Shown here one piece after another: positions 5,283-21,321 of a DNA stretch of 64,000 nucleotides. Location: positions 248,001 through 312,000 of the forward strand of contig NZ_CP015520.1 in the NCBI RefSeq assembly GCF_001647085.1, in the 5' to 3' direction. The translations under genes and the position numbers were made by a program. The number at the start of each line of letters is the position of its first letter. The stretch's first letter is position 1. The notes under the pieces are model-generated. The model searched no databases. It saw only the letters and a program-made list of their open reading frames with translations, and was not told where the DNA came from. This stretch comes from Thermococcus piezophilus. Its GTDB lineage: Archaea > Methanobacteriota_B > Thermococci > Thermococcales > Thermococcaceae.

Positions 5283-5939
5283 TCACTGCAAGTCAACAAT
5301 GGTGCTGGTGTAGGTGCTTGGTGTGGTGAAGTCGATGACGCCCGGTGCACCGAACTCAGGAACGACCTGACCAGTAATGTGAGTCCTAACTGGTATTGGT
5401 GATCCAAACAGCTGATCTGCCCTAATGGTCAGTATAACGATGTCCCCCTGGTTGAGTGTCGGAGCGTCCTGCTGGACGGAGGAGTCATAATCCTGAACAA
5501 CGATGATACCAAAGGTCGTGCTGGTTAATGCACTCCAGTTGTAAACAGTGGGATCAGTAGTGAAGATGTCACTAAGCGGACCCTGGACATAGGTTTTGAG
5601 GGTTCCTCCAGAATACTCGAGAATGCCCTGGACGTTTCCGTTGCTGAGGATTATCTTAGTGTTCTTGAGGTCAATGCCGGTGCTTCCAGCGTTCGGAGTG
5701 ACGTAAATGGCAAGCTTGTCTATTCCTGAGGTTCCATCGTAGTGTCCGGAAACCTTCATAACCTGTATTCCGCTGGCGACCTGTTCAGTGCTTTCCCTAC
5801 CTGTGCTGGAGGCCTTCTGCTGGAGGTAGCCGCTGGTGTTGATGAGTACTGCTGCTGCTACTGCAGCCACTAAAACCATGGCTATAAAAACTATAAGGGT
5901 ACCGATACCCACGGCACCTCTCCTTGTCCTGGCCTTCAT
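5283..5939 (-). CDS. Archaellin FlaB1 (first gene of the archaellum operon)
   Basis: A 218-residue archaellin starting [18 protein letters not shown] with the class III signal peptide, then [19 protein letters not shown] and the outer domain. It ends [16 protein letters not shown]. It is the promoter-proximal gene: ATG 5939 follows GGGGGTG, and a TATA box lies at 5983-5997. In Thermococcales the first archaellin is generally the main filament subunit; that it is so here is inference from position. Confidence 0.94.
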
Positions 5940-5982: not shown

Positions 5983-6047
5983 ATGTAAATATAAAGGCCT
6001 TTTTTGTCCTTAGTAGTGTAGGTGGTTGTGTAGGTGCATATGTAGGT
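5983..6047 (-). promoter_or_regulatory. Archaellum operon promoter with three 12-bp-phased ACCTACA repeats
   Basis: Reading towards flaB1, three direct repeats of ACCTACA occupy 6047-6041, 6035-6029 and 6023-6017, spaced exactly 12 bp apart. They are followed by an A-rich stretch (AAGGACAAAAAAAGG) and a TATA box, TTTATATTTACAT, around 5984-5996. TATA lies about 45-55 bp before the flaB1 ATG, leaving a leader of 20-30 nt. The phased repeats are placed where an activator would help recruit TFB/TBP. The divergent EarA-like gene makes EarA the obvious candidate ligand. Confidence 0.75.
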
Positions 6048-7116: not shown

Positions 7117-7446
7117 TCACATGAACCTCCTGTAATAGCGATAATATTCCTTGAGGTAGTCCACAACCTTCTTCCCGTAGTTTGTCAGGCGGTAGTATTT
7201 GAAGCCGTTATTAGAAACCTCCTCCACGAGGCCAAGGTACACAAGAGAGCTCTCACCGTTGTAGCGGTTGCCGAGGCCAACCAGGGCACCTCTGACATTC
7301 GATGGATCAGAACCGACCACCCTTGCTATCTCCGAGAGGTACGTCGCAGAAGGATATATTTCGCTCAAGTACATCAGTATCTTCTTCCGCAGTTCGCTGC
7401 GGTGGATGGAACGCAACACCTGTGGATCAACGATCACTGTGTTCAT
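7117..7446 (-). CDS. earA: EarA-like winged-helix archaellum transcription activator
   Basis: A 109-residue basic protein with one winged-helix domain: KKILMYLSEIYPSATYLSEI, then VGSDPSNVRGALVGLG as the recognition helix, then LGLVEEVSNNGFKYYRLTNYG as the wing. The C-terminus is Tyr/Arg-rich. Size, sequence pattern and location beside the fla operon fit EarA, the euryarchaeal archaellum activator defined in Methanococcus maripaludis. The ATG at 7446 follows GGAGGAAGG. It precedes the methyltransferase gene and overlaps a small ORF by ATGA. The probable targets are the ACCTACA repeats at the fla and che promoters; this is inference. Confidence 0.75.
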   Translation of the reverse strand: MNTVIVDPQVLRSIHRSELRKKILMYLSEIYPSATYLSEIARVVGSDPSNVRGALVGLGNRYNGESSLVYLGLVEEVSNNGFKYYRLTNYGKKVVDYLKEYYRYYRRFM

Positions 7447-7791: not shown

Positions 7792-8877
7792 ATGGAGATG
7801 ATAATCGAGCTCGCCGTTACCGTGGGAGTTGCCATTGTTCTGGCGTACTACGTCAGGGACGTGACGGACAAAGTCCTGGCCAGACACTTTGAGCTCAAAG
7901 AGGAGCTCGGCGAGCTTGAGTCCAAGCTCTCAAAAGTGAGGGACGAACTAGAATCAAAGATAAGGGACGTCAGGTCGAGTGTTTCTTCAGGGGAAGCTGG
8001 GGTCAAGGAAGAGGTCAGCCAGATGCTCAGGGCGGTAGAAGAGAAGCTCAGGAGATTAGAGGATTCCCTTAAAGAGCTCCAAAAGTTCGAAACAAAGGTT
8101 GACTATGAGCTCGGTAATTTAAGGTTTGAATTAAAAAAGACAAGCCAGCATATTGAATCCCTTGAAGAGGAGCTGAAAAAGACTGAGAGTACGTTAAGGG
8201 AAGAACTTAAGAGAGAGCTCCTTTCTGAGCTACAGGAAGAGATAGAACATCTTGAGGAAACCATAGAGCGGAGAAAACGGACGGAAGTTGAAGAGTTTTT
8301 GGATGTCATCAAGGCTGCCATAACCCTACAGCCGGAAAAATTGAGTGCTGGTATGGCCGAGGCTAAAAGGGCCTTGCTGTCACTTAGGGACATAGCTAAA
8401 ATTTACGTCCTTACCGGACAGGGACAAAAGGAATTCAGGGAACTCAAAGAGAACCTTTTGCAGCTCCTAAAGAATCTGCGTAAATTGGCCATAGTGTCCC
8501 TTCCAGATGAGAAAGTCTATGCCATTTTCAACGATATAATCGTCAGGGTAAAAAGGCTCGATCTGCCGATGAAAGTGAACAAGGACGGAAAGGAAAAGGA
8601 GCTCAACCCTGAGAAGAGCTTCATTCAGATACACAAGATGGTTTACGAGCTTGCAGGTGAACTTGATAAGATAGCCGAAGAACTTCAGGAGCCCATACCT
8701 GTTACACCTGTTGAAAAGGAGTTCTACGAAAAGCTGCGGCACCAGTTTGAGGAACTTAGAAAGCTTGAAGAGCAGGTGCAAAGGCTCATGCTAAAACTAA
8801 CCGACAAAGGGGAAAACATGGAAAAGACCGGGGACAAAAGCGTAGAGGAGATACTCAAGGAACTTGACCTTATCTAA
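7792..8877 (+). CDS. Membrane-anchored coiled-coil protein, che/archaellum-linked, paralogue 1
   Basis: A 361-residue protein of unknown function. Residues 1-24 form one membrane helix (IIELAVTVGVAIVLAYYV), so the bulk is probably cytoplasmic. Residues 30-165 are a long continuous coiled coil. Residues 170-335 form a helical domain with a conserved core RLDLPMKV(N)KDGKEKELNP and IPVTPVEKEFYEKL. That C-terminal domain is clearly paralogous to the protein at 19527-20276 at the other end of the che block (TKLPIVLKSKDGKET, NPAVTPLEIKLF). The start is ATG 7792 or 7798, both behind AGGTGGT. It converges on cheW with a 4-bp overlap. A scaffold or cone component of the motility machine is a reasonable guess, not shown. 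Confidence 0.85.
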   Translation: MEMIIELAVTVGVAIVLAYYVRDVTDKVLARHFELKEELGELESKLSKVRDELESKIRDVRSSVSSGEAGVKEEVSQMLRAVEEKLRRLEDSLKELQKFETKVDYELGNLRFELKKTSQHIESLEEELKKTESTLREELKRELLSELQEEIEHLEETIERRKRTEVEEFLDVIKAAITLQPEKLSAGMAEAKRALLSLRDIAKIYVLTGQGQKEFRELKENLLQLLKNLRKLAIVSLPDEKVYAIFNDIIVRVKRLDLPMKVNKDGKEKELNPEKSFIQIHKMVYELAGELDKIAEELQEPIPVTPVEKEFYEKLRHQFEELRKLEEQVQRLMLKLTDKGENMEKTGDKSVEEILKELDLI

Positions 8878-9314
8878 AACTCTTCCCCAAGGAGTTTGTC
8901 TAGGTCAAGCATTAAGAGGAGCCTTTCTCCGTTGTTTATTTTGGCTATGCCCTTGATGTAGCGGATGTCAACCCTGCTGCTTAAGGTCTTTGGTGGCTGG
9001 TCTATCTGATCCTCGGTTAGGGTTATGACATCCGAGACAGAATCCACGATTATGCCTATTATCTCATCCCTGACCTCCGCAAGTATTATCTTTTTCTTCG
9101 AGAGGTCTTCATCGGAATCATAGTAACCGAGGAGTTTTTTGAGATTGACAACAGTAGTTATCTGCCCACGAAGATTTATAACCCCCTCAACGAAATCCGG
9201 AGAATTGGGGACTCTGGTTATTGGCATCATCTCTTTTATTTCCCTAACCTTTGAGATATCCAAACAAAACTCCTCCTTTCCAACCATAAAGGCCACTACC
9301 TGAATCTCGGTCAT
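8874..9314 (-). CDS. cheW: Chemotaxis adaptor CheW
   Basis: A 146-residue single-domain CheW. It begins MTEIQVVAFMVGKEEFCLDI, then ITRVPNSPDFVEGVINLRGQ with the conserved VINLRG motif, and ends in the second SH3-like subdomain. CheW couples chemoreceptors to the CheA kinase beneath the membrane. ATG 9314 has GAGGAGGTGATT upstream; the longer reading adds 11 residues without a better signal. It lies 4 bp downstream of the MCP gene and is co-transcribed with it. Confidence 0.95.
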   Translation of the reverse strand: MTEIQVVAFMVGKEEFCLDISKVREIKEMMPITRVPNSPDFVEGVINLRGQITTVVNLKKLLGYYDSDEDLSKKKIILAEVRDEIIGIIVDSVSDVITLTEDQIDQPPKTLSSRVDIRYIKGIAKINNGERLLLMLDLDKLLGEEF

Positions 9315-9318
9315 ATAA

Positions 9319-10545
9319 TCACCTCCTCGTGACCTTAACCTTTTCAAGAAGTTCCTTTGATTTGGTTATGGACTGTTCAATATCTTCAAGGCCACTTCGT
9401 ATCTCATTTAACCTAGATTGCATCTCGGTGAAGGATTCAACAATAGGAATTATGTTATTAGACACTTCATCCTGGAGGGATTGAACATTGTTTATGTTGT
9501 CCATGAGCATCTGGACGGATTGAGCCTGGCTATCTATGCTGTCGGAGAGCTCTTTTATCATGTTGGCAGTTTCATTAGCTCGCCTAGCTATGTCATCAAA
9601 AGCTGCTATAAGCTCTTGGACAGCGTCTTTTATCTCCTCTGTTACCTTGAACCCCTGTTTGATTGAGTTTACAACAGTTTCAATGCTCTCCTGCATGTTC
9701 CTAATAAGCTCAGCTATCTGGTCCGTGGACCTTTTTGACTGATCAGCCAGCTCACGGATGTTCTCTGCAACAACGGCAAAGCCCCTACCATGCTCACCGC
9801 TTCTTGCAGCCTCAATAGCAGCGTTTAGGGCGAGCAAATTGGTCTGCTCCGCTATGCTTCCGATAACCTCAACTATTTCCCCTATCCTCTTGGAGTGCCT
9901 TACAAGTATGGAAACCGCTTTCTCCATGTTCTGGTTGACCTCATTGATGCTCGCAACGTTAAGGGCAACGTTGTCCGAAATGCGCCTCCCTGTTTCGGCC
10001 ATGTTGGCGGTTTCTAGGGCATAATCGGTGAGAGCTTGGGCCTGGGTGTTCATCTCCTCTATACCCGCCGTTAAAGTTTGGATGTAGTCCCCAAGCTCTG
10101 CAATTGCAGAGCGTTCCCTATCGAGAACGTTGGTAATCTCATCGTATTCCACATTGCTCTCAACGTCAAGACTTGACAGGGTGGAGGACAACTTTTCTTT
10201 TACCTCCTCAAGATTTTGAAGAGCAGTACTGATCTCGAGTGGGATTGAATCCCGGTGGGTTTCAACTTTTTTTCTGCTCAGGATATTTATCCTCTCACCG
10301 ATGACATTTAATCTGGTTGCAATCTCTGCCCTAAACTTTAAGAGGTCAACCCTCTCTCCTTTTAGCATAGCCTCAATGGCATCCAGAATTTTACTTGTCT
10401 CATCACCTATCCGCGAGAGGTAAACGGAAACCGCAATAGTGGAGGCAACGCCTATAACAAGCCCTACTACAGGGGACACCAGGGTTCCGGCAAGTGTGAG
10501 AAGTGACACTGAGCCTACCGCAACTATGGTTGTTCCTCGGCTCAC
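9319..10545 (-). CDS. Methyl-accepting chemotaxis protein with membrane hairpin and no external sensor domain
   Basis: About 408 residues. Two closely spaced hydrophobic segments (about residues 5-45) form a membrane hairpin with almost no extracytoplasmic loop. A linker and a long helical bundle follow. The hairpin tip [20 protein letters not shown] with [19 protein letters not shown] is the highly conserved CheA/CheW contact region. Lacking a ligand-binding domain, it may sense an internal or membrane-state signal. The preferred start is GTG 10545 behind GGGGGGAT; GTG 10560 is the alternative. A single ACCTACA box lies upstream at 10606-10612. Confidence 0.92.
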
Positions 10546-10773
10546 GGGTAATCCCCCCACACCGCTATTTGTTTAATATCGCCTAAAGAATAAAAGATTT
10601 TCGCATGTAGGTAATAACTTTTAATACTCGTTAATATAATAATAAATCCTGACGTAATCGCCTACCTATGTACCTACACAACTACATACAAACAAAGATT
10701 TTTTATGTAGTTATGAGATAATAAAACTTTGAAAAGTCTGCAACAGCTAACCAAAAGTATCGGATAATCCCCT
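10546..10773. promoter_or_regulatory. Divergent mcp/cheR regulatory region with ACCTACA-type elements
   Basis: Towards the MCP gene, one ACCTACA (complement of 10606-10612) stands 10 bp before a TATA-like CTTTTATTC (about 10588-10596). Towards cheR, CCTAC occurs at 10661 and 10673, and the variant CATAC at 10685. These keep a 12-bp phase, followed by an A/T-rich TATA candidate (about 10697-10706). The layout matches the archaellin promoter, so archaellum and che operons probably share one activator. No reading frame of interest lies in the 228 bp. Confidence 0.65.
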
Positions 10774-11655
10774 ATGGGTGCGTGGCTTGAAATGGTGGAT
10801 GTAAATGATTCCGGCTATCAGATGGTTAAGAAGGAACTTTTCAGGCACCTAAAGGTAAATAGTGACGCCTACAAGGATACATACCTCATAAGACGCATAA
10901 GGGCAAGGATGAGAAGGCTTGGCATAAGCAGTTATATGGAATACTACCGCATAATAAAGACGAACAAGCAGGAACTTGATGAGCTACTACTAACAATCGC
11001 AATAAACGTCACAGAGTTCTTCAGGGACCCAGTGGTCTGGAGAACCTTTGAAAAAAAAGTTATTCCAGAGCTTGTCAGTTATAAGGAAAAGCATCATACA
11101 CACACCATTAAGATATGGAGCGCCGCATGCTCCACAGGACAAGAGCCCTATTCAATAGCCATGACCCTCTATGAAGCCTTAGGCGAAAATCTCGGTGGAT
11201 TTAGGGTTCGGATACTAGCAACTGACATAGACAGAGAAGCCCTTACAACGGCCATAAGAGGGGAGTATCCCGCAGACGTTGTGGAGAAACAGGTGCCGAG
11301 GCACATGATACCCAAGTACTTCACCAGAATAAGCCAAGAGCGCTATAGGATTTCCCCAAAGATAAAGCGTCTCGTCAAGTTCCAGCAGTTCAACTTATTC
11401 AGTCCAACGTACCCCAAGGGTTTTGATGTGATATTCATCCGAAACGTGCTGATCTACATAAAAAAGGACGCCCAGGAGGAAATATTTGAAAAGCTGTATG
11501 ACTCCCTTGAAGATCATGGCTATTTAATCCTTGGTAAAACTGAAACCATACTTGGTAATGCCGCCAAGTTGTTTAAATTGTATGATCTCCCCGCAAGAAT
11601 ATATCGCAAGAACCTGGAGGTGAAAGGCCATGGCACGGGTTTTGGTCGTAGATGA
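10774..11655 (+). CDS. cheR: Chemotaxis protein methyltransferase CheR
   Basis: A 293-residue CheR that methylates glutamates on chemoreceptors using SAM. An N-terminal all-alpha domain (residues 15-85; RRIRARMRRLGISSYMEYY) precedes the Rossmann domain with motif I IWSAACSTGQEPYSIAM. FIRNVLIYI and ILGKTETI follow, as in the family. It heads the plus-strand che operon and overlaps cheY by 26 bp. ATG 10774 gives the usual length; ATG 10792 is an alternative, and neither has a strong ribosome binding site, so a short-leader transcript is likely. Confidence 0.93.
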   Translation: MGAWLEMVDVNDSGYQMVKKELFRHLKVNSDAYKDTYLIRRIRARMRRLGISSYMEYYRIIKTNKQELDELLLTIAINVTEFFRDPVVWRTFEKKVIPELVSYKEKHHTHTIKIWSAACSTGQEPYSIAMTLYEALGENLGGFRVRILATDIDREALTTAIRGEYPADVVEKQVPRHMIPKYFTRISQERYRISPKIKRLVKFQQFNLFSPTYPKGFDVIFIRNVLIYIKKDAQEEIFEKLYDSLEDHGYLILGKTETILGNAAKLFKLYDLPARIYRKNLEVKGHGTGFGRR

Positions 11656-11992
11656 TGCAGCATTTATGCGCATGCTGCTGAAGAAGATACTAACCCAGGG
11701 AGGCCACCAGGTCGTTGGAGAAGCTGCAAACGGAAAGGAGGCTGTTCAGAAGTACCAAGAACTCAAGCCCGACATTGTAACTATGGACATAGTTATGCCC
11801 GAAATGGATGGGATTACCGCTGTGAAGGAGATAAAAAAGGTCGATCCAAATGCCAAGATAATCATGATTACCGCCGTTGGACAAGAGGGAAAGGTTATGG
11901 AAGCGTTAAAAGCAGGAGCCTCTGGTTACATCGTCAAGCCGTTCCAAGCCCCTAAGGTGCTGGAAGAGATAAATCGTGTGCTGTCAGGCTAA
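11630..11992 (+). CDS. cheY: Chemotaxis response regulator CheY
   Basis: A 120-residue single receiver domain: MARVLVVDDAAFMRMLLKKI carries the acidic pocket DD, DIVTMDIVMPEMDG the phospho-acceptor Asp (about residue 54), MITA the conserved Thr, and YIVKPF the Lys. In archaea phospho-CheY acts through CheF on the FlaC/D/E ring. The start lies inside the cheR end behind GGAGGTGAAAGGCC. Confidence 0.95.
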   Translation: MARVLVVDDAAFMRMLLKKILTQGGHQVVGEAANGKEAVQKYQELKPDIVTMDIVMPEMDGITAVKEIKKVDPNAKIIMITAVGQEGKVMEALKAGASGYIVKPFQAPKVLEEINRVLSG

Positions 11993-12004
11993 GGGTGAAG
12001 TCCA

Positions 12005-13117
12005 ATGCCACTGAGCCCATCCACCAAGAAAATCAGAGTGCTGGTTGTGGATGATTCAGCATTTATGAGAAAGATACTCAGGGATATAATAAATTCCGAC
12101 CCCGAGCTTGAGGTCTGTTGTGAGGCGAGGGACGGGGTAGAAGCCATTGAGATGGCCAAGCTGCACAGGCCCGATGTTATAACACTTGACATAGAGATGC
12201 CTCGAATGAACGGGCTTGATGCCCTGAGGGTAATAATGAAACAAACCCCCACCCCAGTTATAATGATAAGTGCCCTAACCCAAGAGGGTACTGAAGCAAC
12301 TATAAAAGCCCTCGAATATGGTGCCATAGACTTCATACCCAAGCCGAGCTCATCCATTTCCATAAACATGAAGGAGATGAAAGATGAGATTATAGCAAAG
12401 ATTAAGGAAGCTGCAAAAGTCCCAAGGCGATTCCTTGAGCTCAAAAGAATGAGAATTCTCAGGATCCAGAAAAGAAAGGTCAAAAAGCCCAGTGTGTCCG
12501 CCAGAACTGTTGTGGCCATGGCAGCATCAACCGGTGGCCCGCAGTCCCTCCTCAAAGTGTTTCCGAAGTTTCCAGACAATTTAAAGGCCGCGGTGCTTCT
12601 GGTGCAACACATGCCCCCGGGATTCACCAGATCATTCGCTAAGAGGCTTGATAGCGTTAGTAAGATAGATGTAAAGGAGGCTGAAGACGGTGATCCCATC
12701 GAGGAGGGAAAAGGCTACGTTGCTCCGGGGGATTATCACATGGAAGTAAAGATGAGGGGAGGGAAGCCTGTAATAGAGCTGAACAAAAAACCAAAGATTC
12801 ATGGGGTAAGGCCAGCCGCAGATCCCATGATGATAACCGCGGCGGATGTATTTGGCAGAAGAACCGTCGGGGTGGTAATGACGGGCATGGGTCGCGATGG
12901 TGCTCAGGGGATAGTTGCAATTAAGAAAAAAGGGGGAATAACAATAGCCCAGGACAAAGAAACATCGATAATCTTCGGAATGCCCAAAGCGGCTATTGAA
13001 ACCGGCATGGTTGATTATGTGGCCCCCCTTGATAAAATCGCCGAGACTGTGGTAATGGCAGTAAACAAAATTAACCGGGGTGGTGCCAGTGGAGGATCTC
13101 TCTCAGTATTTAGATGA
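12005..13117 (+). CDS. cheB: Chemotaxis methylesterase CheB
   Basis: A 370-residue protein with an N-terminal receiver domain ([18 protein letters not shown], phospho-Asp in [14 protein letters not shown]) and a C-terminal methylesterase/amidase domain. The catalytic triad is visible: Ser in [13 protein letters not shown], His in [17 protein letters not shown], Asp in [11 protein letters not shown]. It removes receptor methyl groups opposite to CheR. It follows cheY by 12 bp and overlaps cheA by about 29 bp. Confidence 0.95.
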
Positions 13118-15410
13118 GTTTCTTGCCGATGCGAGAGACAGGATAGACAGCCTCAGCAACGCCATATTAGCTCTGGAAAAGATAGTTAAAGAGGGGGGTG
13201 GCGAGGAGGAGAAGAAAGCATTAATAGACCAGATATTTAGAGATGCTCATACACTCAAAGGCACAGCCGCAACGATGGGATTTATGAGGCTCAGTGAAGT
13301 TGCCCATAAAATGGAGAACCTCTTTGACCTCGTCAGGAGTGGAAAGATCGAGCCAACTCCAGAGCTTATAGATGTTCTTTTGGAATTTCTTGATGTACTA
13401 GAGGGAATGGTGGACAACATAGAGGAGAGCGGAAGCGAAGGGGATTTTGACATTGACGAGCTATTTAAAAAGGCCCAGAAGTTCTTTGAGGAGGCGGGAC
13501 AGGTAGAGACGGCTCCTCCAAGCCCTCAACCTGGAAAGGTGGAAGAGAAGGGTGAAGAAGTTTCCAGAGAAGCAGAAATCAAGGAAACTGAGGCAATAAA
13601 GTATCGAATCAGGGTTTATTTCCACAAAGATGCCCAGCTCAGGGGTGTAAGGGCATTTCTAATACTCTCTGATTTGGAGGAACTTGGAGAGATAATTGAA
13701 ACAATGCCAAGTAGAGAGATTATAGAGGATGGAAAGGCCGATGTTGATGTTCTGGAATTTTTGATAGCTACTGAAGAGAGTCCCGAAAAGATAAAGAATG
13801 TGATAATAAGACACCCTGAGGTTGAAAGGGTTGAGATTGAGGAATACCGTCCACCTGCTAAACAGGAGGGCAAAACTTATACCGTTACCGTTTACCTGCA
13901 GAAGGATGCCCCCCTAAAGGGAGTTCGCTCTTACCTGATCCTCCAGGATCTCCAAAAACTTGGGAATATCACGAAAACCATGCCGGATGTTATGGCAATT
14001 CAAAACGGCAACATAATCGATGGGTACTACTTCAAGGTGTTGATTGCATCAAGTGCATCACCCGAGGATATTATTAACATTGTACGCAAGCATCCGGATG
14101 TGGAGGATGTAAAGGTTGAAGAAGGCGACCATATCGAACCGGAAACTGCTGAAGGTGAAGGAAAACCCTCAGGTTCCAAACAGAAAACTGAGGGGAAGGC
14201 CAAGGACAAACCCAAAAAACCCAAACCCGTGCCAACTCCAAAGATCAAGGTGTCAAAGATTATAAAGGTCGATGTTTCACACCTTGATAGGCTTATGAAC
14301 CTTGTCGGTGAGCTCGTTATTAACAAAGGGCGTCTGGAGCAGATAACCGAAAGACTGGGCGACAGGGAGCTTCTAGAAACGCTCTCAACGCTCTCAAGAC
14401 TTCTCACTGAACTCCAGGACGAGATAATGGAAATGCGCCTCACACCTGTGGCTGAAGTATTCAACAAGTTCCCTCGTATGGTTCGTGAGCTGGCAAGGAA
14501 GATGGGCAAAGAGGTTGAATTTATCATTGAGGGCGCGGACATTGAAGTTGACAGGACGATACTTGATAAGCTGGGCGATGTCCTTGTACATCTTCTGAGG
14601 AACGCCATAGATCACGGAATTGAGCCTCCGGAAGAGAGAGAAAAACTTGGAAAGCCACGTGCGGGTAGATTGGAGCTAATAGCAAGACGTGAGAGAAGCC
14701 ACGTGGAGATAATAGTTCGTGATGATGGTAGAGGAATTGATCCTGAGAAGATAAAACGCAAAGCCATTGAGAAGGGTATCATAACCCCCGAGCAAGCAGC
14801 AGAGATGAGTGATGAGGAGGCCATAAATCTGATCTTCGTTCCGGGATTCAGCACCAAGGATGAAGTCACCGATGTCTCTGGAAGGGGCGTCGGGATGGAC
14901 GTCGTGAGGGATGTGGTGAAGAGTCTGAACGGCACAATATCAGTTCAAAGCGAGGTCGGTAAGGGTACTACCTTTATCTTGAAACTGCCCGTTAGTATGG
15001 CCATTATCCAGGCTCTTCTCATAGAGGTGCAGAGCGAGGTTTATGCAGTGCCAATAAACAACATCCTTGAAAGCATCGAAATAAAACGTGAAAACCTGAA
15101 GAGCATTGGCGGAAAGGATGTCATAGTGCTCCGAGGAGAGATAATACCGGTGATAATGCTCCATGAGCTGTTTGGCCTTCCTATAGTTGAAAGGGATGAA
15201 TTCCCTGCCATAGTGGTTGACCTGGGTTCTCAAAAAGTGGCAATTGGCGTTGATCAGCTTCTCCACAAGAAGGACATAGTCATCAAGAGCCTTGGCAAGA
15301 TGCTCTCCAACATCAATGGCTTTGCAGGAGCAACAATACTGGGTGATGGTAGTGTTGTTTTGATCATAGAGATAAATGGACTGCTTGGTGGTGGTACGAG
15401 TGGAATATGA
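13089..15410 (+). CDS. cheA: Chemotaxis histidine kinase CheA with duplicated P2-like domain
   Basis: About 773 residues. The Hpt (P1) domain carries phospho-His in [14 protein letters not shown]. Two tandem, mutually similar ferredoxin-like P2 domains follow: about 167-253, [20 protein letters not shown], and about 260-345, [20 protein letters not shown]. After a Lys/Pro linker come the P3 dimerisation helices, P4 ATPase ([38 protein letters not shown]) and P5, a CheW-like domain. It phosphorylates CheY and CheB. GTG 13089 with GGGGTGGTG before it gives the usual N-terminus [14 protein letters not shown] 13080 is an alternative. Confidence 0.95.
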
Positions 15411-16023
15411 AAAATATCTTAAAAATCTCGACGAGTTCGCAAAGAGCGCGCTGGTTGAGACCTTCAACATAGGCGCTTCAAGAGCGGCGGACACCCTCAG
15501 CAGGATGACCGGTCTAACAGTCAACGTAACGGTTCCGGGAATGGAAATCACGTCAATCAAAAATCTGCCAGAAAAGGTTGGCGAGGATGTAAAGGCGGCT
15601 GTGTACATACAGCTGAGCAAGGGCTTCAGTGGTCATGCGTTCTTCATTATGGATCTAAATAATGCCCTCACGATGTCTGACCTTATGATGGGAATGCCCC
15701 CTGGAAGCACAACGGAGCTTGATGAAATGGCAAAGTCCGCGGTGATGGAGGCGGGTAATATACTGATATCCTCCTTCGCAAACGCACTCAGTGAGTTCCT
15801 CGGGACGGAGATAGAGCAAACTCCACCCAATCTGGTCATTGATTTTCTCCCCGCCATACTTGATCTTGCACTCGCCGATATAGGTCAGTATTGCGACTAT
15901 ACCCTACTCCTGAAAACTCAGATGAAAATTGAAGGTATTGAGTTCAAAGAGCACTTCATAATACTCCCTCATCCTTCCTCTATGAAGAAGATTATAGATA
16001 CCCTGCTGGGGGGATTGGTATGA
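15400..16023 (+). CDS. cheC: CheY-P phosphatase CheC, paralogue 1
   Basis: A 207-residue CheC. Both conserved E...N active-site helices are present: ALVETFNIGASRAADTL near the N-terminus and SAVMEAGNILISSFANAL in the middle. It should dephosphorylate CheY-P, and in other species is activated by CheD. GTG 15400 is chosen because GGTGGTGG lies 5 bp upstream inside the cheA end. A second cheC follows with a 4-bp overlap. Confidence 0.93.
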   Translation: MEYEKYLKNLDEFAKSALVETFNIGASRAADTLSRMTGLTVNVTVPGMEITSIKNLPEKVGEDVKAAVYIQLSKGFSGHAFFIMDLNNALTMSDLMMGMPPGSTTELDEMAKSAVMEAGNILISSFANALSEFLGTEIEQTPPNLVIDFLPAILDLALADIGQYCDYTLLLKTQMKIEGIEFKEHFIILPHPSSMKKIIDTLLGGLV

Positions 16024-16682
16024 GCGGGCACAAGAGCTGGTTTTCTGAGTGGTATCAGGACATATTTCGTGAAGCTTCCAACATAGCAATGAGCCACGCA
16101 TTGACCGCACTCTCAAACATGATAGGCGAGATTGAAATGGAGCCTCCGGAAGTTGAGGTCATACCGCGGGCAAAGTTTCTGGCCACCATCATCAGAAAAG
16201 GAATAAGCAACAGTTTTGTCGTGATGTTTGATATAACCGAAGGACTTACAGGGCTCGCCATTCTGCAGTTTCCAAAGAAGAGTGCCCAAGCGCTCGTGGC
16301 ACTGCTTCTTGGCACAGAGACCAGTGATGATGAAATAGACGATATTGGGAGATCAGCCATAATGGAAGTGGGTAACATACTCATCTCGGTCTACACCGAT
16401 ATACTGGCCAAGCTCATTGATGAACCCGTCTCGCTTAGTCCACCAAAGCATGTCACAAGTCCATACGATATAGAGAAGGAACTTACCAGACCGGACCTAA
16501 GGGATGTTCAGGAGGTTATAATTTTCAGAACGCGCTTTTATCAGTCCAACACAGGTATCGAGAGCCTGTTCTATCTCATTCCAACCAAAGATTCATTTGA
16601 CAAACTGGTTGGAAAACTTGAGGCTCAAGTCAAGGACGTTGAGCCAACGATACAATCTAATGAAGGCTCAAATCAGGGTTAG
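16020..16682 (+). CDS. cheC: CheY-P phosphatase CheC, paralogue 2
   Basis: A 220-residue CheC-family protein. Active-site helix one reads IFREASNIAMSHALTAL and helix two IGRSAIMEVGNILISVY, so both acidic/Asn pairs are kept. It differs from paralogue 1 by an extended C-terminus (residues 190-220). Two CheC copies adjacent to CheD suggest divided roles: phosphatase, CheD partner, or link to the motor. The ATG overlaps the previous stop region (GGTATGA). Confidence 0.92.
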   Translation: MSGHKSWFSEWYQDIFREASNIAMSHALTALSNMIGEIEMEPPEVEVIPRAKFLATIIRKGISNSFVVMFDITEGLTGLAILQFPKKSAQALVALLLGTETSDDEIDDIGRSAIMEVGNILISVYTDILAKLIDEPVSLSPPKHVTSPYDIEKELTRPDLRDVQEVIIFRTRFYQSNTGIESLFYLIPTKDSFDKLVGKLEAQVKDVEPTIQSNEGSNQG

Positions 16683-16719
16683 CAACCCTTTGTGAATGGA
16701 AATCAGCGAGGGTTGAGAC

Positions 16720-17208
16720 TTGCAGGAGATAAAGGTCGGAATCGGCGACTATGCTGTCGGAAAGAAGGCCGGGATAATAAGCACCTATGGGTTAGGCAGC
16801 TGTGTCGGTATAACCCTCTACGATAGACTCACAAAGGTAGGTGGCCTGCTCCATGCCCTCCTGCCGGAAGCGGCATACTATGGAAACAGGGGCAATCCTG
16901 CCAAATACGTTGATACAGGCTTACAGCTCCTCATAAGGGACTTCCAAAAACTTGGGGGTAATCCGAGAAGGGCTGAGGCAAAACTTTTCGGGGGGGCGCA
17001 CATGTTCACCAACATAACCAGCGAGCAGCTCATGATAGGGAAGAGGAACGTAGAGACAGCCAAACGGGAACTTAAAAGGTTTGGAATCAGGCTCGTGGCC
17101 GAGGATACCGGGGGGAAGGGAGGAAGAACCATCTACTTTGACCTCTCAACTGGTAAAGTCAGGATGAGGAAGGTATCCAATGGAAAGGTTATCGAGAAGA
17201 TTTACTAA
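16720..17208 (+). CDS. cheD: Chemoreceptor glutamine deamidase CheD
   Basis: A 162-residue CheD. The catalytic Cys-His pair is visible: YGLGSCVGITLYD and GGLLHALLPEA, followed by KLFGGAHMF and the late GKGGRTIYFDL. It deamidates receptor glutamines and binds CheC. The start is TTG 16720, with GAGGGTTGAGAC upstream and no better ATG or GTG, an uncommon start choice. It follows cheC2 by 37 bp and precedes the Cache receptor. Confidence 0.93.
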   Translation: MQEIKVGIGDYAVGKKAGIISTYGLGSCVGITLYDRLTKVGGLLHALLPEAAYYGNRGNPAKYVDTGLQLLIRDFQKLGGNPRRAEAKLFGGAHMFTNITSEQLMIGKRNVETAKRELKRFGIRLVAEDTGGKGGRTIYFDLSTGKVRMRKVSNGKVIEKIY

Positions 17209-17237
17209 CCCGTAAATTTAAGTTCCCATGGGGGTGA

Positions 17238-19487
<2,250 letters not shown>

Positions 19488-19526
19488 AACCTTTCATTAT
19501 TTCATTTTATCCGGGAGGTGAGACCC

Positions 19527-20276
19527 ATGGACTGGATGATGATAGGGATTGTATCCCTTGTAGTGTTGGTGGGGGCAATCATATCTGCATACATCATATC
19601 AAACACCATCAGCAACCAGATGAGCGAGCTTTACGTGATGCTCATGGAAAGAGAGCTGAAAGGAGGTGGAAAACCAGCCACACCTCCGTCAAAGACCAAA
19701 AAAGAGGACACCAGTGTTGTGGAGCAAGAAACGGTAAAGGTTTCCGGTATCAATGAGGAGGAACTCATTAAAAAGCTCAGGCAGGTTATTGACGAGAAAG
19801 TGGAAAAGGTTCTTGATGAGGCCAAGCATAAAAAGGAAAAACTTCTCATGCTCCTGGATGTGGCAAGGGGTTACACCCTTGGATATATCACGGAAGATGA
19901 ATACAATGCCTTTCTTATGAAAATACTCTCTGAGCTTGAGGAATTCAAGCGTCTCTGGCTGGCTCGCTTTCCAAGTCAAAAGGATAGAGAAAAACTCAAT
20001 CTCATGATGAATTACATAGCCAAGACTAAGTTGCCTATAGTCCTTAAGAGTAAGGATGGTAAAGAAACCATAGCCCTCCCTCCAGAGGAAGCGTTGATAA
20101 AAATCACAAACAATATAAACAGTGCACTGAATATACTTGACGAGCTCATAAGTAGCAGGGGAGAAAATCCTGCCGTTACCCCACTGGAGATAAAACTCTT
20201 TCAGGAGTGTGAAAAACTCCGTTCAAAGATTGAAAAATTGGAGAGACAGCTTGAGGAGTATAGCACTTTAACTTAG
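19527..20276 (+). CDS. Membrane-anchored coiled-coil protein, che-linked, paralogue 2
   Basis: A 249-residue protein of unknown function. Residues 2-25 form one membrane helix (MMIGIVSLVVLVGAIISAYI), then a Lys/Pro linker. A helical domain (about 75-230) is homologous to the C-terminal domain of the protein at 7792-8877: LDVARGYTLGYITEDEY, KLPIVLKSKDGKET, NPAVTPLEIKLF. The C-terminal 25 residues form a short coiled coil. It is encoded between the Cache receptor and cheF, 19 bp before cheF, so it is very likely part of the sensory or motor machinery. Start ATG 19527 follows GGGAGGTGAGACCC. Confidence 0.87.
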   Translation: MDWMMIGIVSLVVLVGAIISAYIISNTISNQMSELYVMLMERELKGGGKPATPPSKTKKEDTSVVEQETVKVSGINEEELIKKLRQVIDEKVEKVLDEAKHKKEKLLMLLDVARGYTLGYITEDEYNAFLMKILSELEEFKRLWLARFPSQKDREKLNLMMNYIAKTKLPIVLKSKDGKETIALPPEEALIKITNNINSALNILDELISSRGENPAVTPLEIKLFQECEKLRSKIEKLERQLEEYSTLT

Positions 20277-20295
20277 AGGCATAGAGGGGAGGATC

Positions 20296-21321
20296 ATGGC
20301 AGTAACGGAGACCAGGGTAAAGGTGGCTATAGTTTCATCTTGGAGAGGCTCGAGAGAGGTGAAATGGAAAGACGCAATTGGGGTTATCCAGAACGATGGA
20401 ATAACCCTTAAATACCTCCGCATGGGAGAGGTCATAGGAGAGGACACTTTCTCATTCTCATCGCTCTCCGACTTAAGTGTAAACGTTCCCGATAACTACA
20501 AGCTCAACCCCGAGAAAGAGCACTTCGGTATGAAATTTTACATTCCTGGAAGAGGGGAATTGATGTTGATACTCACCATTGGGGACAACCTGCTGATATA
20601 TGATGAAAAGAAGTTTAGAGAGTTCATTCATACAATATTCGAAGTGCTCATTAACGGCAAGGCGGTGAAGCTACTGCTGGCCAGGATTAAAGGAGGGGCA
20701 ATAAACATGGAGTCCAAGTGGGAGGACGGATCGCTCAGGATAGTCTCCATAAAGTCAGCCAAGAAGGGAACAACCGAGAGGAATATCGTGGTTCTTGACT
20801 CAACCAAGAAGCCGATACCCATATTTTCTGATGTTGAGGATATGGATGTTGAAGAGATCGACATGGATGGTAAAAAGGTGGAGGCATGGAAAATAAAACA
20901 CTTCTACGTGAATGAGACCATCACCTCCTACCTATACATACCAGAGAAGAAAACCAGATTATATGTGCTCCGCTATTTGATCAGATACATACCTGGCTAC
21001 TTTGAGTTCGTGAGGAAACTGTCGAAGGAATTTCCCGTGCTTCAGGCAGAGTTTAAAGAGGTCATAGAGAAGGAACTAAAGGAACTGGAGAGCCTTGATG
21101 AGATGGAGAAACAAATTCTCATGGCACTCTATTCAGGTCTTAACCCGCTGGAGGTTCATCAGTTCCTCGGCCTCGATGAGAGAGAAATAGAGGAGATATA
21201 CGACAGGATGATAGACAAGGGGCTCCTAAAAATAGTCATGATAAGGAAAGTTGTGGATCTCACACGGGAGGGCAGAAAGATAGTAAACAAACTGATAGAA
21301 TATGGCCTTGTGGCGATGTAA
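20296..21321 (+). CDS. cheF: Archaeal chemotaxis adaptor CheF with C-terminal helix-turn-helix-like segment
   Basis: A 341-residue protein. Residues 1-250 match the archaeal CheF family (DUF439): SSWRGSREVKWKDAIGVIQ, ISLTYLRMGE-type strands, then IKHFYVNETITSYLYIPEK. CheF binds CheY-P and the FlaC/D/E ring and is required for switching in haloarchaea. Residues about 265-341 resemble a winged helix: EMEKQILMALYSGLNPLEVH, LDEREIEEIYDRMIDKGLL, then a wing and VDLTREGRKIV. It ends the che operon. The start follows GGGGAGGATC. Confidence 0.87.
   Translation: MAVTETRVKVAIVSSWRGSREVKWKDAIGVIQNDGITLKYLRMGEVIGEDTFSFSSLSDLSVNVPDNYKLNPEKEHFGMKFYIPGRGELMLILTIGDNLLIYDEKKFREFIHTIFEVLINGKAVKLLLARIKGGAINMESKWEDGSLRIVSIKSAKKGTTERNIVVLDSTKKPIPIFSDVEDMDVEEIDMDGKKVEAWKIKHFYVNETITSYLYIPEKKTRLYVLRYLIRYIPGYFEFVRKLSKEFPVLQAEFKEVIEKELKELESLDEMEKQILMALYSGLNPLEVHQFLGLDEREIEEIYDRMIDKGLLKIVMIRKVVDLTREGRKIVNKLIEYGLVAM

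Follow-up and report, generated by a model that had tools for sequence, protein, structure and literature searches.

Judged from its sequence, the spacer between mcp and cheR carries a real and conserved EarA-type operator at the promoter of the chemotaxis (che) operon. We put at roughly 80% the probability that EarA binds the repeat units of the cheR promoter and activates the che operon together with the archaellum. The repeats of the archaellum (arl) promoter are conserved across the family before most receptor genes as well as the che operon. Swimming and steering are thus probably under one activator, EarA, and the che operon likely belongs to its regulon.

Repeat units at the arl and che promoters

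The analyzed stretch of DNA (the window) covers 64 kb of a Thermococcaceae genome of 1.93 Mb. The arl (fla) promoter (6016–6047, − strand) served as the reference element. It contains three EarA-type units in 12-bp phase, in the order ACCTACAT, ACCTACAC, ACCTACAC, the last of which ends 20 nt before TTTATA, and the operon is transcribed leftward from position 5939. The gene of the presumed regulator, earA (7117–7446, − strand), encodes a protein of 109 aa matching PF07381 (EarA-like, E 9.5e-34) and lies 3.2 kb from the mcp–cheR spacer; a search by sequence found no solved structure resembling EarA. The spacer is bounded on one side by cheW (8874–9347) and the divergent mcp (9319–10560), both on the − strand (PF01584 and PF00015), and on the other by cheR (10774–11655, + strand; PF01739, E 4.4e-56), the first gene of the che operon. 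The remaining genes of this operon (11630–21321, + strand) are cheY, cheB, cheA, two cheC genes, cheD, a second mcp, a coiled-coil gene and cheF; judging from their spacing, the genes from cheR to cheF are presumably co-transcribed. The che genes are flanked by genes for coiled-coil, membrane-anchored proteins without a known family (7792–8877 and 19518–20276), which are paralogues of each other (31% identity over 142 aa, E 4e-11).

Three arl-type units precede cheR on the + strand. Unit 2 (ACCTACAC, 10672–10679) is an exact match to A(C/G)(C/G)TACA(T/C) and serves as the anchor of the array, and the units on either side of it are degenerate: unit 1 (GCCTACCT, 10660–10667) lies 12 bp 5′ of unit 2, a phase that is kept in relatives, and unit 3 (ACATACAA, 10684–10691) abuts the BRE, which was assigned by eye as AAACAAAGA. 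The predicted TATA box of the cheR operon, TTTTTTAT (10699–10706, + strand), follows 7 nt after unit 3. The initial annotation had pointed to two CCTAC repeats and one CATAC repeat facing cheR, and a recheck of the exact coordinates (10661–10665, 10673–10677 and 10685–10689, all on the + strand) confirmed both their positions and their 12-bp phase. A further block, resembling AATAACCnTTAATACGnGTTAnAATAATAA and located between the mcp-side and che units (10620–10660), shows fairly good conservation in the window clade without fitting any known element.

The crude pattern CMTAC-N7-CMTAC occurs five times in the window versus 0.23 expected, with two matches at arl, two at the che array and one within cheR. 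Genome-wide it produced 24 matches versus 14 for a reversed control, and we dropped it as genome-wide evidence because of this weak specificity, using an arl-trained matrix in its place. The matrix was built from 23 distinct units of relatives' arl promoters and included no che sequence. Its tandem scores were 29.3 and 29.2 at arl and 22.2 and 18.8 at the che array, and the best score elsewhere in the 64-kb window was 13.6. Random sequence of the spacer composition gave no score of at least 17 in 2 Mb, and random sequence of the window composition gave none of at least 20 in 4 Mb. When the pattern matches of the window's own genome were ordered by core score, arl ranked first, che second and the promoter of an odp–mcp operon third; the next matches scored 18.5 and below versus 19.4 for che, about one unit apart. 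Since these other matches nearly equal che, the score alone does not define a regulon, and position and conservation do. The matches with two mismatches that were inspected in this genome all fall within long open frames.

Conservation and register of the array

A comparative alignment of the spacer had been proposed in the initial annotation, which named non-conservation of the repeats as one of the results that would refute its reading. The alignment contradicts that outcome for the cheR-side array, which proved to be the most conserved part of the spacer. CheR is present in 33 of 94 Thermococcaceae genomes, and the array lies 5′ of cheR in 30 of these 33, Pyrococcus-like genomes among them. 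Of the three genomes without it, one has a CheR of 36% identity, and in the other two CheR is divergent at 55% identity; these two have EarA and arl. One genome (G076) retains the array, and EarA and archaellin genes were not found there, possibly owing to an assembly gap.

Sixteen representatives with a mean spacer identity of 47% were used for the promoter alignment. Among them, unit 2 is the top 8-nt window of the promoter, with 1.92 bits per column compared to about 0.45 in the flanks; the A, T, C and A of the unit 3 core are invariant, and the core T and C repeat at all three 12-bp steps. Tens to hundreds of kilobases separate che from earA in the Pyrococcus-like genomes (g3), and neighbourhood therefore does not account for the shared array.

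In 28 of the 30 che promoters, 19 nt separate unit 2 from the TATA box. At the arl promoters, the last clear unit lies 20 nt (13 genomes), 32 nt (10 genomes) or 44 nt (8 genomes) from the TATA box, and the spacings at arl and che thus represent steps of 12. The corresponding distances at receptor, AAA ATPase and DUF835 promoters, as given by a simple TATA score, are mostly 4–8 nt.

On the other side of the spacer, a single EarA-type unit, ACCTACAT (10605–10612, − strand), faces mcp and cheW; TGTAGGT at 10606–10612 of the + strand reads ACCTACA on the − strand, exactly where the earlier annotation had placed it. This unit (10612–10605) sits 9 nt before TTTTAT, and the predicted BRE and TATA box of mcp, CGAAAATCTTTTAT (10590–10603, − strand), are conserved in the clade and recur as CGAAAAnnTTTTAT in several more distant genomes. 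Within the window clade, 13 genomes keep the unit itself, in the form ACCTACAT, ATCTACAT, ACATACAT or ACCTACAG and at a constant 67 nt from unit 2; outside this clade, including in the Pyrococcus-like genomes, it is absent. As an arl-like element it is the weaker case, since it is a lone unit, conserved only in 13 close relatives and placed differently, at 9 nt from the TATA box, and so does not form repeated units in the arl register. Control of mcp and cheW through this unit is plausible rather than established.

Published motifs and the wider set of promoters

In P. furiosus, archaellation requires EarA, and an EarA motif is found 5′ of arl across Thermococcales (Stöckl et al. 2023; PMC10665913). 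That study attributed the arl repeats to EarA and left a che link as a question; it contains no description of che or receptor promoters. In the mechanism put forward for arl, EarA brings TFB to a weak BRE. The cheR array resembles the Thermococcales arl promoter of that study in its A(C/G)(C/G)TACA(T/C) units, the adjacency of the repeats, their placement just 5′ of the BRE/TATA and a register that agrees within 1 nt, but differs in its degenerate outer units and in a third unit that touches the BRE.

Villain et al. 2021 (PMC8643681) described in T. kodakarensis a 23-bp motif common to the promoters of fla, che, TK0156, TK2147, TK1139 and TK1605, two receptor genes among them; its function was called unclear and no regulator was named. 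The genes carrying it respond jointly to gyrase and to histone mutations (PMC8643681; PMC8155482). The reverse complement of this motif, ACCTACATAAVCASVTACACAAA, corresponds to two EarA-type units in 12-bp phase, whereas the published description was limited to one species, drew no link to EarA, and neither split the motif into 12-bp units nor traced it across the family. Compared with it, the window has 2–3 mismatches at arl and 4–5 at che, and no other place in the 64 kb has five or fewer; in another genome (G024), the che, receptor, odp, AAA and arl promoters have 1–3 mismatches and carry both units.

Shared fla/che control is thus partly in print already (PMC8643681, PMC10665913), and the initial annotation, to which a coupling of chemosensory genes to the archaellum activator was not known to be described for this group, needs qualifying with regard to the fla/che/receptor motif (PMC8643681). 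We found no paper in the open-licence literature joining the EarA motif with the 23-bp fla/che motif. The central proposal of the annotation, an archaellum-activator element at a chemotaxis promoter, while not wholly undescribed, is well supported by conservation, the TATA register and recurrence at receptor genes.

More distant systems offer partial parallels. In the fla promoter of Methanococcus maripaludis, four EarA sites are necessary (Ding et al., as cited in PMC5512572). Several short TACA-containing sites lie directly 5′ of the BRE there, as they do at cheR, and the Methanococcus BRE is weak; these sites differ in being 6 bp long and in belonging to a methanogen, in work that did not cover chemotaxis genes. 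In Haloferax volcanii, one regulator, CsmR, is bound at archaellum and chemotaxis promoters (PMC13286277), as proposed here for EarA, but CsmR is unrelated to EarA and its motif is TATCA-N4-TGATA.

We surveyed 30 receptor loci besides the divergent mcp in seven genomes, with a threshold score of at least 17. Seven of the 30 are located in or beside the che operon and lack an array of their own. Among the 23 receptors outside the operon, 18 have an array scoring at least 17, either at their own promoter or ahead of the first gene of a two-gene operon, and some of these arrays are inverted. The third receptor of the window's own genome comes second in an operon whose first gene encodes ODP, an oxygen-binding diiron protein (PF19583, E 5.5e-70; PDB 6qrq, E 1.4e-60). 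This operon (L193 744–1527, − strand; G000:C1 about 603100–605100) lies next to a gene for an A-type ATPase subunit. The TATA box of the operon is directly bordered by an inverted array, an arrangement kept in six of the seven genomes, other genera included.

Arl-type arrays were also observed at other genes. A Vps4-like AAA ATPase gene (PF00004, Vps4_C; TK1139-like) has one at its promoter in G018, G022 and G024 (second array of L199, L200, L203); no close homologue of it was found in the window's genome, and no array before the G005 homologue. In G018 and G022, an array lies directly 5′ of the TATAAA box of a DUF835 gene (L199 1270–1290, L201). The common spacer of two small divergent genes (L202, L204) contains arl-type units and, after them, an inverted one (ACCTACA...TGTAGGT).

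EarA is present in 32 of the 33 CheR-bearing genomes (Fisher p 3e-4, uncorrected for relatedness). Counts of the pattern against its reversed control were 281/86 in genomes with EarA and che, 174/106 in those with EarA only, and 62/51 in those with neither. Autoregulation of earA was considered as a general feature and rejected, with clear arrays 5′ of earA in only 5 of 30 loci checked and none in the window's genome. One clade (G018, G057, G062, G043, G025; L038, L052, L057, L058, L060) carries two arl-type units 83–98 nt 5′ of the EarA domain, which suggests autoregulation in that clade and not in the window's genome. Three other genomes (G077, G085, G073) have an EarA-like domain within open frames of 435–470 aa, an unusual, longer architecture.

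Alternative explanations and implications

Because the che units occupy the same place as the arl units, an arl-like mechanism is the simplest inference. EarA would bind the 12-bp-phased ACCTACA units just 5′ of the BRE/TATA of the cheR operon, and bound EarA would assist the loading of TFB at a poor BRE, in line with the proposal for arl; the che operon would thereby be switched on jointly with the archaellum. Several observations count against this model: only the middle cheR unit is perfect in this genome, coding matches elsewhere in the genome nearly equal che in score, two genomes with EarA, arl and a divergent CheR lack the array at cheR, G076 has the array with neither EarA nor archaellin genes found, and the inverted receptor arrays are not explained by the simple version of the model.

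The array could be a true operator that serves another regulator common to arl and che, with EarA acting at arl only or indirectly. In the literature we found, the demonstrated binding of EarA concerns Methanococcus (PMC5512572) and not Thermococcales DNA; TK0168, a regulator of the Lrp/AsnC type, changes together with fla and che in a histone mutant (PMC8155482). However, the arl units are the very ones assigned to EarA (PMC10665913), EarA accompanies che in nearly every genome that has it, and the motif excess is near zero in EarA-less genomes, and we regard a different regulator as unlikely. A topology- or chromatin-sensitive promoter element without a dedicated binding protein, as speculated by Villain et al. 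(PMC8643681), would agree with the strong response of fla and che to gyrase and histone mutations (PMC8643681; PMC8155482), but would sit poorly with the sequence-specific core, the 12-nt TATA register and the link to EarA occurrence. In Methanococcus, moreover, removal of EarA sites phenocopies EarA loss (PMC5512572). We consider such an element highly improbable, and an effect of topology may act through EarA.

Chance resemblance, or similarity left over in a young spacer, draws on the shortness of the units and on a crude pattern that is fairly common genome-wide. Yet the array is conserved beyond the remaining spacer, even in genomes in which che is distant from both arl and earA, and its scores are unmatched in random sequence; conservation in divergent genomes and these scores led us to reject this explanation, whose remaining probability is negligible.

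With EarA as the preferred regulator, a broader reading has a good chance of being correct, namely that EarA is the master activator of a whole Thermococcales motility-and-sensing regulon. This regulon would comprise the archaellum, the che operon, the dispersed receptors, the oxygen-sensor ODP–receptor operon and, in some species, the AAA ATPase and the DUF835 gene. EarA would read 12-bp units at 12-nt steps from the TATA box, and the 23-bp motif of T. kodakarensis would be its operator.

Judging from the 12-nt steps between units and TATA box, contact between an archaeal activator and the basal machinery may follow a simple geometric rule. For the question of EarA targets besides arl, raised by Stöckl et al. 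2023 (PMC10665913) above all for species with chemotaxis, the conserved arrays supply a concrete list of candidate targets and the exact bases to mutate. Two separately published observations, the EarA motif and the fla/che motif of 23 bp, are hereby joined into one testable regulon.
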